Origin: Mesorhizobium loti R88b
GTDB lineage: Bacteria > Pseudomonadota > Alphaproteobacteria > Rhizobiales > Rhizobiaceae
Direction: 5' to 3'
Length of the DNA stretch: 64,000 bases
Assembly (NCBI RefSeq): GCF_013170845.1
Contig: NZ_CP033367.1
Coordinates: forward strand, 3,783,001-3,847,000
Below are positions 2,996 to 63,776 of the stretch, in pieces. The position numbers and the translations under genes are program-made. The notes below the pieces were generated by a model that saw only the letters and a list, made by a program, of their open reading frames with translations, made no database searches and was not told where the DNA came from. Positions within the stretch are counted from its first letter, which is position 1; the number at the start of each line of letters is the position of its first letter.

Positions 2996-3756
2996 AATCC
3001 GTCCCGTCCGCGAAAACGCCGCTGATAGTGGGCGTCGTACAATGAACTCTCGCCAAAGCCTTCCGCCGCGAGTGAGCGGCCGACGAAGATGATCGCCGTG
3101 CGCTCCATCGGATCGGCGGCCAACAACGCCTCGATCGTGGCCAGCGTGCCGGTCAGCACGCGCTCGTCCGGCCAGGAAGCGCGAAAAACGATCGCCACCG
3201 GGCAATCGCCGCCATAGTGCGGTGTCAATTCGGCGACGACGCGATCGATGGCGTGGATGGCCAGATGGATGGCAAGCGTGGCGCCGGTGCGGCCGAAGCC
3301 GGCCAGTGTTTCGCCAGGCGGCATCTTTGAGGCGCGGCCGGAGATGCGGGTCAGCACCAGGCTCTGCGCGACCTCGGGAATGGTCAGTTCGCGGCGAAGG
3401 GCTGCGGCCGCGGCGGCGAACGAAGGAACGCCCGGCGTCAGCGTGTAGGGTATGCCGTGCTTTTCCAGCCGGCGGATCTGCTCGGCAACCGCGCTCCATA
3501 CCGACAGGTCGCCGGAATGCAGGCGGGCGACATCATGGCCGGCCTTATGTGCGTCGAGATAGGCGGCTTCGATCTCGTCGAGCGACATCGGCGCCGTGTC
3601 GATCAGCTTTGTTCCCGGCGCGCAGTGCTGCAGCAATTCGGGCGCGACGATCGAACCGGCGTGGAGACAGACCGGACAGCTTGCCAGCAGCCTGGCGCCA
3701 CGCAGCGTGATGAGATCGGCGGCGCCCGGGCCTGCGCCGATGAAATGGACGGTCAT
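2992..3756 (-). CDS. cobM: Precorrin-4 C11-methyltransferase
   Basis: SAM-dependent methylation of precorrin-4 at C11 to give precorrin-5. The 254-aa tetrapyrrole methyltransferase fold shows the N-terminal [18 protein letters not shown] motif, the [13 protein letters not shown] motif near residue 80, and the [12 protein letters not shown] segment, which fit CobM/CbiF. It overlaps cobE upstream and cobA downstream by 4 nt each, consistent with coupled translation. No unusual features. Confidence 0.96.
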
Positions 3757-7638: not shown

Positions 7639-8273
7639 AGACCCGGCCTCGCCAGCGAATTGAGCGCGGCCGCGGTCATGGCGCTGCCGCCGAGCCGGCC
7701 GCGCACGATGGCATAGGGCACGCCATAGGAATTCTCGGCCAGCGCATCCTTGGATTCGGCCGCACCGACGAAGCCGACCGGCATGCCGATGATGGCCGCC
7801 GGCTTCGGCGCGCCGTCGCGCAGCTTTTCCAAGAGATAGAACAAAGCGGTCGGCGCATTGCCGATGGCGACGACGGAGCCGGCCATCCGTTCGCCCCACA
7901 GGTCGATGGCAGCAGCCGAGCGAGTGTTGCCGATCGCCTTGGCGATGTCATGCGTGCGCGGGTCGCGCAAGGTGCAGATCACCTCGTTGCCAGCGGGCAG
8001 GCGGGCGCGGGTGACGCCATGCGAGACCATTTCCGCGTCGCAGAAGATCGGCGCGCCGGCGGCGAGCGCCTTGCGCGCGGCGGTGACGAAGTCAGGCGAA
8101 AAAACGAAATGGCTTGATGCTTCGACCTGGCCGCAGGCATGGATCATGCGGATGGCGACATCGGCCTCGGCTTCCGAGAAGCGCGTGAGATCAGCCTCGG
8201 CGCGGATGATGGCGAAGGAGCGTTCGTAGATCGCCGTGCCGTCGTGGATGTAGTCGTAGGCGGCCATGCTCAT
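7635..8273 (-). CDS. cobH: Precorrin-8X methylmutase
   Basis: Moves the methyl group from C11 to C12, turning precorrin-8X into hydrogenobyrinic acid. The 212-aa protein contains MIHACGQVE, which carries the catalytic His of CobH, then APIFCDAEMVSHGV and PVGFVGAAESKDAL, both highly conserved. The start overlaps the cobG stop (ATGA, 8270-8273) and the stop overlaps cobI. Nothing unusual. Confidence 0.97.
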   Translation of the reverse strand: MSMAAYDYIHDGTAIYERSFAIIRAEADLTRFSEAEADVAIRMIHACGQVEASSHFVFSPDFVTAARKALAAGAPIFCDAEMVSHGVTRARLPAGNEVICTLRDPRTHDIAKAIGNTRSAAAIDLWGERMAGSVVAIGNAPTALFYLLEKLRDGAPKPAAIIGMPVGFVGAAESKDALAENSYGVPYAIVRGRLGGSAMTAAALNSLARPGL

Positions 8274-43084: not shown

Positions 43085-43764
43085 TGGCTGAGGTCATTAT
43101 CGAGTTGAAGAGCGTCGAACGGCACTATGTCCAGGGGCCGCGCAAGCTGACCATTCTCAACGGCGCCGATTTTGCGCTGAAGCGCGGCGAGATGGTGGCG
43201 CTGGTGGCGCCGTCCGGCACCGGCAAGTCGACGCTGCTGCATACCGCCGGCCTGCTCGAACGCCCCGACGCCGGCGACGTGATCCTGTCCGGCCGGGCCT
43301 GCGGGCGATTGTCCGACGACGAGCGTACGTCAATCCGCCGCAACGATGTCGGCTTCGTCTACCAGTTCCATCATCTGCTGCCGGAGTTTTCCGCGCTGGA
43401 AAACATCATGATGCCGCAGCTGATCAAGGGGTTGAGCCGCAAGGAAGCGTCCGAGCGCGCGGCGCAACTGCTCGACTACATGCAGATCGGCAAGCGCGCC
43501 TCGCACCGGCCGTCCGAACTTTCCGGCGGCGAACAGCAACGCGTCGCCATTGCCCGTGCCGTCGCCAATGCGCCGCTGGTGCTTTTGGCCGACGAGCCGA
43601 CCGGCAACCTCGACCCGGTCACCGCCTCCTATGTCTTCGACGCGCTGAGCGCACTGGTCAAGCAATCGGGACTCGCCGCGCTGATCGCGACCCACAATCA
43701 CGACCTGGCCTCGCGCATGGACCGGCGCGTTACGCTGGCCGACGGCAAGGTTGTGCCGCTGTAG
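43084..43764 (+). CDS. lolD: Lipoprotein-releasing ABC transporter ATP-binding protein
   Basis: ATPase subunit of the Lol transporter (226 aa). Walker A is [11 protein letters not shown], the signature motif is [14 protein letters not shown], Walker B is [11 protein letters not shown], and the switch His is in THNHDLA. The GTG at 43084 shares its G with the TAG of lolC; the longer open frame upstream is a shadow of lolC. Confidence 0.96.
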
Positions 43765-44220
43765 GGATTTTGATCTCTCCGAGGGTCACTGGGGGATCAG
43801 AACCGCCAGTGAGCCTTCAGTGCGATCAGGGTGGAAGAGATCGCGATCATCACAAGGATGAGCAGCCAGGTTACGAAGTTGCGCGGGAGGCGCCACCGGC
43901 GGCCTTGCCTCATGCGCTTTCGCCAACGATCAGCTTGATTGGCGCCTTGGTGTTGCCCCACGTCCATCACTCGGTAGTCGTTCAGCTTGCCCACTATTGT
44001 CCCGGCTGAGATTAAGCAGGCGTTAATATAGCTTGCCCCAGGCGAGCAATCGCAATGGCTTGAAACGCGCCATGAGCCGCAAAAGGCTCATCCATACGCT
44101 ACGGGAAGAGGGCGTCGCCCACATCTTCCTGACCTGTTGATAGGTCCCGCGCCGTCAACCTTTCCTTAACCCTGCCGATTTGATCGCCCGGAGATTCTGG
44201 AGGCAGCCGGGTTCCGTCCG
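43765..44220. other. Intergenic region with one possible small gene
   Basis: After lolD the region holds only the weak minus-strand frame at 43797-43994. Further on there is a hairpin ATGAGCC/GGCTCAT at 44072-44091 without a T-run. Base composition becomes AT-richer towards 44200. No other coding signal is seen. Confidence 0.5.
43797..43994 (-). CDS. Possible small single-pass membrane protein
   Basis: A 65-codon frame starting with GTG. The N-terminal 40 residues are strongly basic (RWRKRMRQGRRWRLPRN), followed by one hydrophobic segment, FVTWLLILVMIAISSTLIAL, near the C-terminus. There is no clear ribosome binding site. The topology is plausible for a small inner-membrane protein, but the frame could be chance. 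Confidence 0.35.
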   Translation of the reverse strand: MGKLNDYRVMDVGQHQGANQADRWRKRMRQGRRWRLPRNFVTWLLILVMIAISSTLIALKAHWRF

Positions 44221-44255
44221 TTGACATTGAAACAAAATTAGAACAAATTGAGAAC
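44221..44255 (+). promoter_or_regulatory. Promoter with LexA (SOS) box
   Basis: GAAC-AAATTGA-GAAC at 44241-44255 is an exact GAAC-N7-GAAC, the alphaproteobacterial LexA operator. A TTGACA -35 element sits at 44221-44226, and a weak -10 candidate, CAAATT (44244-44249, spacing 17), lies inside the LexA box, so bound LexA would block the promoter. The only gene directly downstream on this strand is the 28-codon frame at 44278. Confidence 0.75.
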
Positions 44256-44277
44256 ATATCAACAACAGGAGAGAGTT

Positions 44278-44364
44278 ATGACCGATCTGGTTCAGGATGT
44301 CATCTCGCTGGTTTGCATGAGCACATTCCTCATTTCCATGGCGATCTGGATCGGCGCCATGTGA
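44278..44364 (+). CDS. 28-aa hydrophobic peptide, predicted SOS-induced
   Basis: The ATG at 44278 follows AGGAGAGA at ideal distance (six bases from GGAG) and opens a 28-residue frame ending TGA. The peptide starts MTDLVQDVISLV, contains one Cys, and its second half (STFLISMAIWIGAM) is a single hydrophobic helix, so it would span or sit on the inner membrane. The upstream LexA box suggests induction by DNA damage, like the enteric TisB toxin in logic though not in sequence. It is below usual gene-calling size. The lipB gene is convergent, 12 bp away. Confidence 0.65.
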   Translation: MTDLVQDVISLVCMSTFLISMAIWIGAM

Positions 44365-44376
44365 TTTGGCGAAGGC

Positions 44377-45120
44377 TCAACCGACCTTGCGCGCCGCTTC
44401 GACGGGCAAGGCCGTGGCGGGGCCGAACACGTCCTCGAAGGCTGATTTAAGCGCCAGATCAAGGTCGGCCATGCCAACGGGCAGACCGAGGTCGACGAGG
44501 CTGGTGACGCCGTGGTCCTGCACGCCGCAGGGTACGATGCCGCTGAAATGGGCGAGGTCCGGCTCGACATTGATGGCGATGCCGTGAAAGCTCACCCAGC
44601 GCCGCAGCCTGATGCCTATTGCGGCGATCTTGTCCTCCGCCGGCGAGCCGTCCGGCAAGGCAGGGCGATCGGGCCGCACCACCCAGACGCCAACCCGGTC
44701 CTCGCGGCGCTCGCCATGGACGTTGAAGGCAGCAAGCGTGCCGATGATCCACTGTTCGAGCGCGGCGACGAAAGCGCGCACGTCCTCGCGCCTCCGCTTC
44801 AGGTCAAGCATGACATAGGCAACCCGCTGGCCCGGCCCATGATAGGTGTATTCGCCGCCGCGTCCGGCCGCGAAGACCGGAAACCGGTCAGGCTCGATCA
44901 AATCCTCGATGCGGGCACTGGTGCCGGCGGTGTAGAGCGGGGGATGTTCGACCAGCCAGACCATTTCGCCGGCGGCCCCGCTGCGGATCGCCTCGGCGCG
45001 CGTCTCCATGAAGGCGATCGCATCGGGATAGGCGGTGAGATCAGGCTCGATGCGCCACTCGACCGGTGCCGAACCGGGGAGCGGCAGGAACGACGTGGCA
45101 ATCTGGCTGCGTTCTGGCAT
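44377..45120 (-). CDS. lipB: Octanoyl-[acyl-carrier-protein]:protein N-octanoyltransferase
   Basis: Transfers octanoate from ACP to lipoyl domains, the first step of lipoate synthesis. The protein (247 aa from the chosen start) has the [20 protein letters not shown] motif, [22 protein letters not shown] with the catalytic Lys, and the nucleophilic Cys in [14 protein letters not shown] chose the ATG at 45120; an in-frame ATG at 45162 would add 14 basic residues. Confidence 0.95.
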
Positions 45121-45347
45121 GGCTTTTCGTTTTTCGCTTGTGCCGCCGCGATCCGCTTGCACTTTCGGGCGACATGCATCTGCCTCCCATATGGCGTCAA
45201 TCGCTCAAAACGTCCAGTTCCTGCGCCGTATTCCAATCCTGTGGACCGTTATGCCAATCGGTTGAGATTATTGCTTGCCGCGCACTTGTTTCGCCGGAAA
45301 CGATTTGCTACACGCCGCGTGCCGGTCGGTTCCGGCTCCTACCACGT

Positions 45348-62805: not shown

Positions 62806-63776
62806 AACGCCAGAACCGTGATCGCCGAGACCAAACCGAACAGCGCGATCAGTAGATAATCGGCGACGCGATAGAGCGTCAGCGCCCGCCTGATGTCGCC
62901 GCTGTCGACGTCGCGGCGGCCGCCTTCGCCCATGAAAACATCGTCGACCACGATGCCGCCATAGCTGCGCGGTCCGGCAAGTGCCAGGCCAAGCGCGCCG
63001 GCCATCGCCGCCTCCGGCCAGCCGGCATTGGGCGAGCGGTGCTTCTTCGCGTCGCGCCACACCGCTTGCTGGGCGCTGCTGGGATCGGCGCCCTTGACCA
63101 GGAAAGCCGCCAGCACGATCAGCAAAGCTGTCAGCCGCGAGGCCGGCAGGTTGATCCAATCATCGAAGCGCGCGGCGGCCCAGCCGAAGGCCTCGTGACG
63201 CGGGGTGCGGTGGCCGATCATCGAATCGGCGGTGTTGGCGGCCTTGTAGGCGGCACCGCCGGCCAGACCGCCGACACCCGTCCAGAAGGCGGGGGCGACG
63301 ATGCCGTCGGAAAAATTCTCGGCCAGGCTTTCGATCGCCGCCCGGCAGACGGCGGCGCGGTCGAGCGCCTCGGGATCGCGGCCGACGATGCGCGAGACGG
63401 CGACGCGGCCCATGGCCAGGCCGCCCGAGTCAAGCGCGTCAGCCACGGCCTCGACATGGTCGTAGAGGCTTTTCTGCGACAGCAGCGATGTCGCCAGAAG
63501 GGCGGCAATGAACAGCCCGAACGGAACGAACCAGAGCAGAACAAGCTGCACGCAGAGACCAATCACCGCCGGCAGCAGCACGATGACCAGCAGCGCCCGG
63601 ACACCATTTTGGCGACGCAGCGCGTCGGGATCAGTGGCGCGGTTGAGCCTGATGTCGAGAAAGGATATCAGCCTGCCGAACCATGTTACGGGATGGCCGA
63701 TGGCGCGGAACAGCCAGTCCGGATAACCCAGGACGAATTCGACGGCCAAAGACAGGAAAGCGATCAGGACTGACAT
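62802..63776 (-). CDS. cobD: Adenosylcobinamide-phosphate synthase
   Basis: Attaches the aminopropanol (or aminopropanol phosphate) arm to adenosylcobyric acid; also called CbiB. The 324-aa membrane protein shows GHPVTWFGRLISFLD, AAIESLAENFSDGIVAPAFW and YKAANTADSMIGHRTPRHEAFGWAAARFDDW, the family core. It is antisense between cobO and cobC: its stop shares CTAG with cobO, and its ATG shares CATG (63774-63777) with cobC. Multiple membrane helices. Confidence 0.95.
   Translation of the reverse strand: MSVLIAFLSLAVEFVLGYPDWLFRAIGHPVTWFGRLISFLDIRLNRATDPDALRRQNGVRALLVIVLLPAVIGLCVQLVLLWFVPFGLFIAALLATSLLSQKSLYDHVEAVADALDSGGLAMGRVAVSRIVGRDPEALDRAAVCRAAIESLAENFSDGIVAPAFWTGVGGLAGGAAYKAANTADSMIGHRTPRHEAFGWAAARFDDWINLPASRLTALLIVLAAFLVKGADPSSAQQAVWRDAKKHRSPNAGWPEAAMAGALGLALAGPRSYGGIVVDDVFMGEGGRRDVDSGDIRRALTLYRVADYLLIALFGLVSAITVLAF

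Follow-up and report, generated by a model that had tools for sequence, protein, structure and literature searches.

The window analysed here, a stretch of 64,000 nucleotides from the genome of Mesorhizobium loti R88b, contains between lolD and lipB a short open reading frame that appears to be a real, unannotated gene and, as judged from comparison with its relatives, is apparently induced by DNA damage (Table 1). The frame starts with ATG, terminates with TGA at 44362–44364 and encodes a membrane peptide of 28 residues, MTDLVQDVISLVCMSTFLISMAIWIGAM, which is devoid of Lys and Arg and reaches a best 19-residue Kyte–Doolittle mean of 2.13. The peptide matched no family in Pfam or NCBIfam, and tblastn of the 28-mer against plasmids gave no matches. 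On its upstream side lies the predicted LexA box GAACAAATTGAGAAC. The product of lolD is the best match to the LolD model in this genome, yet it scores under the model cut-off; its ABC_tran domain was matched. On the other side lipB converges on the peptide gene at a distance of 12 nt.

A preliminary description of this DNA had already read a LexA-controlled membrane-peptide frame at this place, and comparative evidence now strongly supports that reading. Direct inspection confirmed the exact GAAC-N7-GAAC motif, and both the good ribosome binding site (AGGAG) and the hydrophobic 28-codon frame were found as described. The proposed promoter stands only in part: the hexamer TTGACA is present, but a simple sigma-70 scan of the upstream region called no promoter, so that the -10 element must be weak or off-consensus. 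A further, degenerate half-site, which was absent from the earlier description, is situated one register upstream of the box.

Table 1. Sequence features of the peptide locus and its neighbours (window coordinates).
Feature	Position	Strand	Basis
-35-like hexamer TTGACA	44221..44226	+	read from sequence
Third LexA half-site, degenerate (AAAC), at N7 spacing before the box	44230..44233	+	GAAC here in 30/40 genus loci
Predicted LexA box, exact GAAC-N7-GAAC, overlapping presumed -10	44241..44255	+	sequence, conservation
Shine-Dalgarno AGGAG, 6 nt before ATG	44267..44271	+	read from sequence
Membrane peptide of 28 aa, SidA-type; proposed inhibitor of division in the SOS response	44278..44364	+	conservation, dN/dS
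lolD, neighbour fixing the slot (start approximate)	43087..43764	+	LolD-model match, ABC_tran
lipB, convergent neighbour	44377..45162	-	LplA-B_cat domain

The box alone is not beyond chance. Two exact copies of GAAC-N7-GAAC were observed in the window against 1.68 expected, and the whole host genome (7.2 Mb, one contig) contains 163 against 196 for the reversed control pattern; with counts near or under the control, significance from the box alone was rejected. The second exact copy in the window lies at 63528–63542, and the number of copies is about that given by chance. It is conservation that carries the significance. In the 100 nt upstream of the peptide an exact box (in either strand sense) was found in 40 of 40 loci of the genus versus 23 of 7242 random stretches from the same loci, and in 73 of 81 other loci of the family versus 34 of 14769. 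With up to one mismatch the latter count rises to 77 of 81, and the eight family loci outside the genus that lack the exact box include two prophage copies. All these loci were retrieved by peptide search alone with no DNA used, at a random control level of 0.2–0.3%. The sequence TTGAC occurs in the same 100 nt in 40/40 genus loci and 69/81 other family loci. The triple half-site GAAC-N7-GAAC-N7-GAAC is present in 24 of the 40 genus loci; the window has AAAC as its first half-site. One further genus locus with an exact box (L126) was omitted from the 40, another locus (L099) is absent from the box counts as its upstream sequence is missing, and L038, L039 and L040 were omitted from the family counts of box, length, start and selection. 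The host genome has lexA, and the motif GAAC-N7-GAAC at G000:C1:4431643-4431657, approximately 70 nt upstream of the lexA match, fits, as expected, a putatively autoregulated LexA that would read the same motif.

The peptide frame itself is coding and under strong purifying selection. The preliminary description had named loss of the frame in close relatives, with the promoter kept, as evidence against its reading; no such loss was seen. In a protein search of 61 genomes the full frame is kept in 37/37 genomes of the genus, and 1/24 genomes of other families matched (E = 0.95). The 40 genus loci represent 37 different DNA sequences and 17 different peptides; among them dS amounts to 0.594 and dN to 0.054, a ratio of 0.090, and the variable columns are distributed over codon positions 1, 2 and 3 as 12, 3 and 22. 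A length of exactly 28 aa is shared by 120 of the 122 family loci; an ATG start is found in 121 of 122 and a Shine-Dalgarno-like sequence in 115 of 121. The family loci include 60 hand-picked regions and 25 new loci supplied by a search with a 16-sequence profile, which matched 289 of 394 family genomes at E <= 1, the weak matches including chance ones. At E <= 0.001 approximately 140 places in about 136 genomes remain by our own count of the printed table.

The place of the gene is conserved as well. LolD or LipB adjoins 109 of 123 family members. Wherever LolD was found (90 of 123 loci) it is upstream and in the same orientation, and LipB, found in 62 loci, is always on the opposite strand, in 40 of them less than 500 nt from the peptide start. 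In 19 of 146 rhizobial loci a DnaE motif lies 162–751 nt beyond the start of the peptide, and one locus (L352) displays the order lolD-peptide-dnaE. A peculiar arrangement was observed in L123 (genome G160, peptide at oriented position 2001), where the peptide adjoins an SSB gene upstream instead of lolD; GAAC half-sites are present upstream there, and the exact box is missing.

Besides these chromosomal genes, a second copy of the peptide in phage-like surroundings was found in six genomes (L346–L351), and an IMG/VR record (L345, peptide at 3263–3340) encodes a peptide identical to that of L349. Among the 100 nt upstream of the seven phage-type copies no LexA box was found, the best candidates agreeing in 5 or 6 of 8 bases; the chromosomal copies L352 and L353 carry the box. 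Two contexts can be distinguished. In L347 (peptide at 7938–8033, + strand) the neighbours are an exonuclease VIII-like protein, a RecT-like protein and a CI/S24 repressor; RecT is also near the copy in L348, and the copies in L346 and L351 (L120) lie beside a PDDEXK protein whose Pfam family is represented in L347 too. In the other context (L090/L350, L038/L349 and L345) a small gene directly precedes the peptide, and in L090/L350 and L345 a DUF5131 (phrog_2045) gene lies downstream of it. A tblastn search of phages with the prophage 28-mer returned no matches.

Peptide sequence similarity alone, as judged by profile searches, reaches little past the order, in which members of the family are sparser than in the family of the host. 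A 61-row wide profile matched 50 of 347 genomes of the order at E <= 0.05. From this search 20 further loci were obtained, 18 outside the family of the host and 2 within it, which have an exact box in 14 cases and one with up to one mismatch in 17; three of them (L127, L137 and L138) look like chance matches and were retained in these box counts. In a class-wide profile search 9 of 385 genomes matched, and boxes were found, besides the host, at L147 (same order) and L148 only. A variation was seen in five loci from Afipia, Tardiphaga, Rhodopseudomonas and Bradyrhizobium (L268, L271 and L304–L306), which contain 32-aa versions of the peptide and, before the start, tandem LexA boxes in opposite orientations, GAAC-N7-GAAC and GTTC-N7-GTTC.

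Gene order extends the distribution to further named alphaproteobacterial genomes. For 29 genomes, chosen via 80 loci of named genomes and all with LolC, the region after lolD was searched for hydrophobic frames of 26–36 aa (hydrophobicity cut 1.4) accompanied by a box agreeing in 7 or all 8 of its bases, up to 4 kb past lolC in 19 genomes and only about 0.8 kb past lolD in 10. A candidate was found on the forward strand in 21/29 genomes versus 2/29 in the reverse-strand control, and with exact boxes only in 16 versus 0 of the 29. The positive genomes include Oryzicola, Aurantimonas, Bradyrhizobium, Rhodopseudomonas, Microvirga, Methylobacterium and Devosia as well as Phenylobacterium, Asticcacaulis, Robiginitomaculum and four Caulobacter. 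No candidate was found in this slot in 8/29 genomes (two Hyphomicrobium, two Methylobacterium, three Brevundimonas and one Xanthobacteraceae); among these, one Brevundimonas has a boxed frame of 29 aa with a hydrophobicity of 1.35 versus the cut of 1.4, and in another the boxed frame is over-long.

The Caulobacter genomes connect this slot with a known protein. In Caulobacter hibisci lolC and lolD are followed by an antisense gene for a nucleoside hydrolase (Pfam IU_nuc_hydro), then by a boxed frame of 29 aa and by dnaE (Pfam DNA_pol3_alpha), and in three further Caulobacter genomes this boxed frame likewise precedes a DnaE motif. Within the genus of C. hibisci the slot peptide was found in 60 of 61 genomes at E <= 10 and in 59 at E <= 1.7e-7; in the best 30 loci it has 29 aa and starts 135–161 nt before the DnaE motif. 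The sidA gene is given as CCNA_02004 (PMC11034885) and an inosine-uridine nucleoside hydrolase as CCNA_02005 (PMC3667746). These tags are consecutive, hence sidA adjoins the hydrolase as in the slot read here. SidA is described as an inner membrane protein of 29 aa that inhibits division via FtsW (PMC4211646). In an older numbering dnaE is CC1926 (PMC1839093), a tag that by itself does not fix its distance to CCNA_02004, and adjacency of the two genes is presumed from related genomes. The Caulobacter slot peptide is thus very probably SidA, identified by its length, its LexA box and the neighbouring locus tag.

The window peptide and SidA are probably orthologues, chiefly on the basis of place, promoter and size. 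They are similar in length (28 versus 29 aa) and have a single hydrophobic helix each; a LexA box lies at the promoter of sidA, and a conserved predicted one at that of the window gene. The lolD–dnaE neighbourhood is shared, in the window on its lolD side, whereas lipB and not dnaE follows there. Similarity of the profiles is weak and in register, aligning start to start (wide profile columns 1–21 onto 1–21). Against 19 Caulobacterales peptides the wide rhizobial profile scored 16.29, as high as which only one of 300 column-shuffled profiles came, and the narrow profile scored 13.2 (7 of 300 shuffles as high); hhalign gave the narrow profile pair a weak probability of 7.5%. Differences are found in the low residue identity, in Arg residues near the N terminus of the Caulobacter peptide (the window peptide has neither Lys nor Arg) and in the tandem half-sites of the window gene.

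By analogy with SidA, the rhizobial peptide is likely an orthologue that is repressed by LexA and inhibits septal wall synthesis (FtsW/FtsN) from the inner membrane, as a division checkpoint upon DNA damage, and we hold this reading with considerable confidence. With LexA on the tandem half-sites across the promoter the peptide gene would be silent, and after DNA damage RecA-stimulated cleavage of LexA would release it. The 28-residue peptide would then insert into the inner membrane and keep the late septal peptidoglycan complex (FtsW with FtsI/FtsN) inactive, and the cell would grow undivided until repair restores LexA. What the comparisons show is coding selection, a conserved box of the LexA type, the conserved place beside lolD (and ahead of dnaE in some of the genomes), size and hydrophobicity; that LexA binds, that the peptide inserts into the membrane, that it targets FtsW/FtsN and that division is blocked we infer from the analogy. 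FtsW is present in the host genome. Binding of SidA to transmembrane helix 7 of FtsW is a low-confidence prediction of a 2026 study (PMC13396833). SulA was rejected as identity of the peptide, which matches no Pfam family, and a search of the host genome for SulA (PF03846) gave no matches. YneA, SosA and ChiZ are likewise SOS-induced small membrane inhibitors of division; YneA acts at FtsW and SosA and ChiZ are predicted to do likewise (PMC13396833). However, a LysM domain is part of YneA and ChiZ and an extended helix is part of SosA, and the 28 residues of the window peptide are too short for either.

The preliminary description had compared the peptide with SOS-induced membrane toxins such as TisB. 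A depolarising toxin like TisB or DinQ, possibly paired with an antisense RNA and making persisters, would be of similar length and would equally consist of a single hydrophobic helix under a LexA box. In Escherichia coli TisB is a toxic peptide under antisense RNA control. The same applies to DinQ (PMC3567139). An antisense RNA would thus be expected with such a toxin. Around the window gene Rfam, which covers described RNAs only, gave no match at the gathering threshold in 43700–44500, and an RNA of a kind not yet described may be present. A fixed place and strong purifying selection are moreover unexpected for a type I toxin of sporadic occurrence, and the conserved slot matches that of Caulobacter sidA. 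The toxin analogy is therefore the poorer fit and was rejected as best reading after the blank Rfam search; we consider such a toxin unlikely.

Even less likely, in our estimation very much so, is a leader peptide or upstream ORF that controls a gene following it, for example dnaE. The short distances to the DnaE motif in the 19 rhizobial loci and in the best 30 loci of the Caulobacter genus would be compatible with it, and sORF25, a translated small ORF in the 5'-UTR of dnaE1 in Sinorhizobium meliloti, was suggested to be a leader (PMC10117765). That 5'-UTR corresponds to the slot held by the peptide family in some rhizobia, and sORF25 may itself be the S. meliloti member of this family, as its slot suggests. 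In the window, however, lipB is convergent, so that nothing lies downstream to lead and the peptide can be no leader of the next gene there; opposite-strand lipB within 500 nt in 40 loci argues in the same direction, and the residues are conserved as well as the frame. A leader of the next gene was rejected on the opposite orientation of lipB wherever this gene was found. A LexA-regulated modulator of another membrane protein outside the divisome, for example of the neighbouring Lol exporter, agrees with the frequent presence of LolD upstream, but the peptide has its own promoter and SOS control, and a Lol-linked role would leave the prophage copies unexplained; hardly any probability can be assigned to it.

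The prophage copies lead to a broader view of the SidA-type peptides. Lambda Kil stops division of the host on induction. To the following proposal we give about an even chance. SidA-type peptides would represent an SOS division checkpoint that is ancient and widespread in Rhizobiales and Caulobacterales and has been overlooked, and temperate phages of rhizobia would have captured the peptide at least twice, once in a lineage with RecE/RecT-like proteins and a CI/S24 repressor and once in the DUF5131 lineage. The LexA box would have been dropped in these events, and the phage peptides would stop host division on induction like Kil.

Searches of the open-licence literature showed us neither a SidA counterpart described from Rhizobiales nor an SOS division inhibitor named for rhizobia. 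If the proposed reading of the window peptide is true, the SidA-type gene would provide plant symbionts, and many alphaproteobacteria besides, with an SOS division checkpoint, in a host in which SulA was not found. The peptides would also provide a natural series of candidate FtsW/FtsN inhibitors of 28–34 residues for mapping the minimal binding determinants, and the translated small ORF of S. meliloti may be a gene in its own right and not a leader of dnaE.
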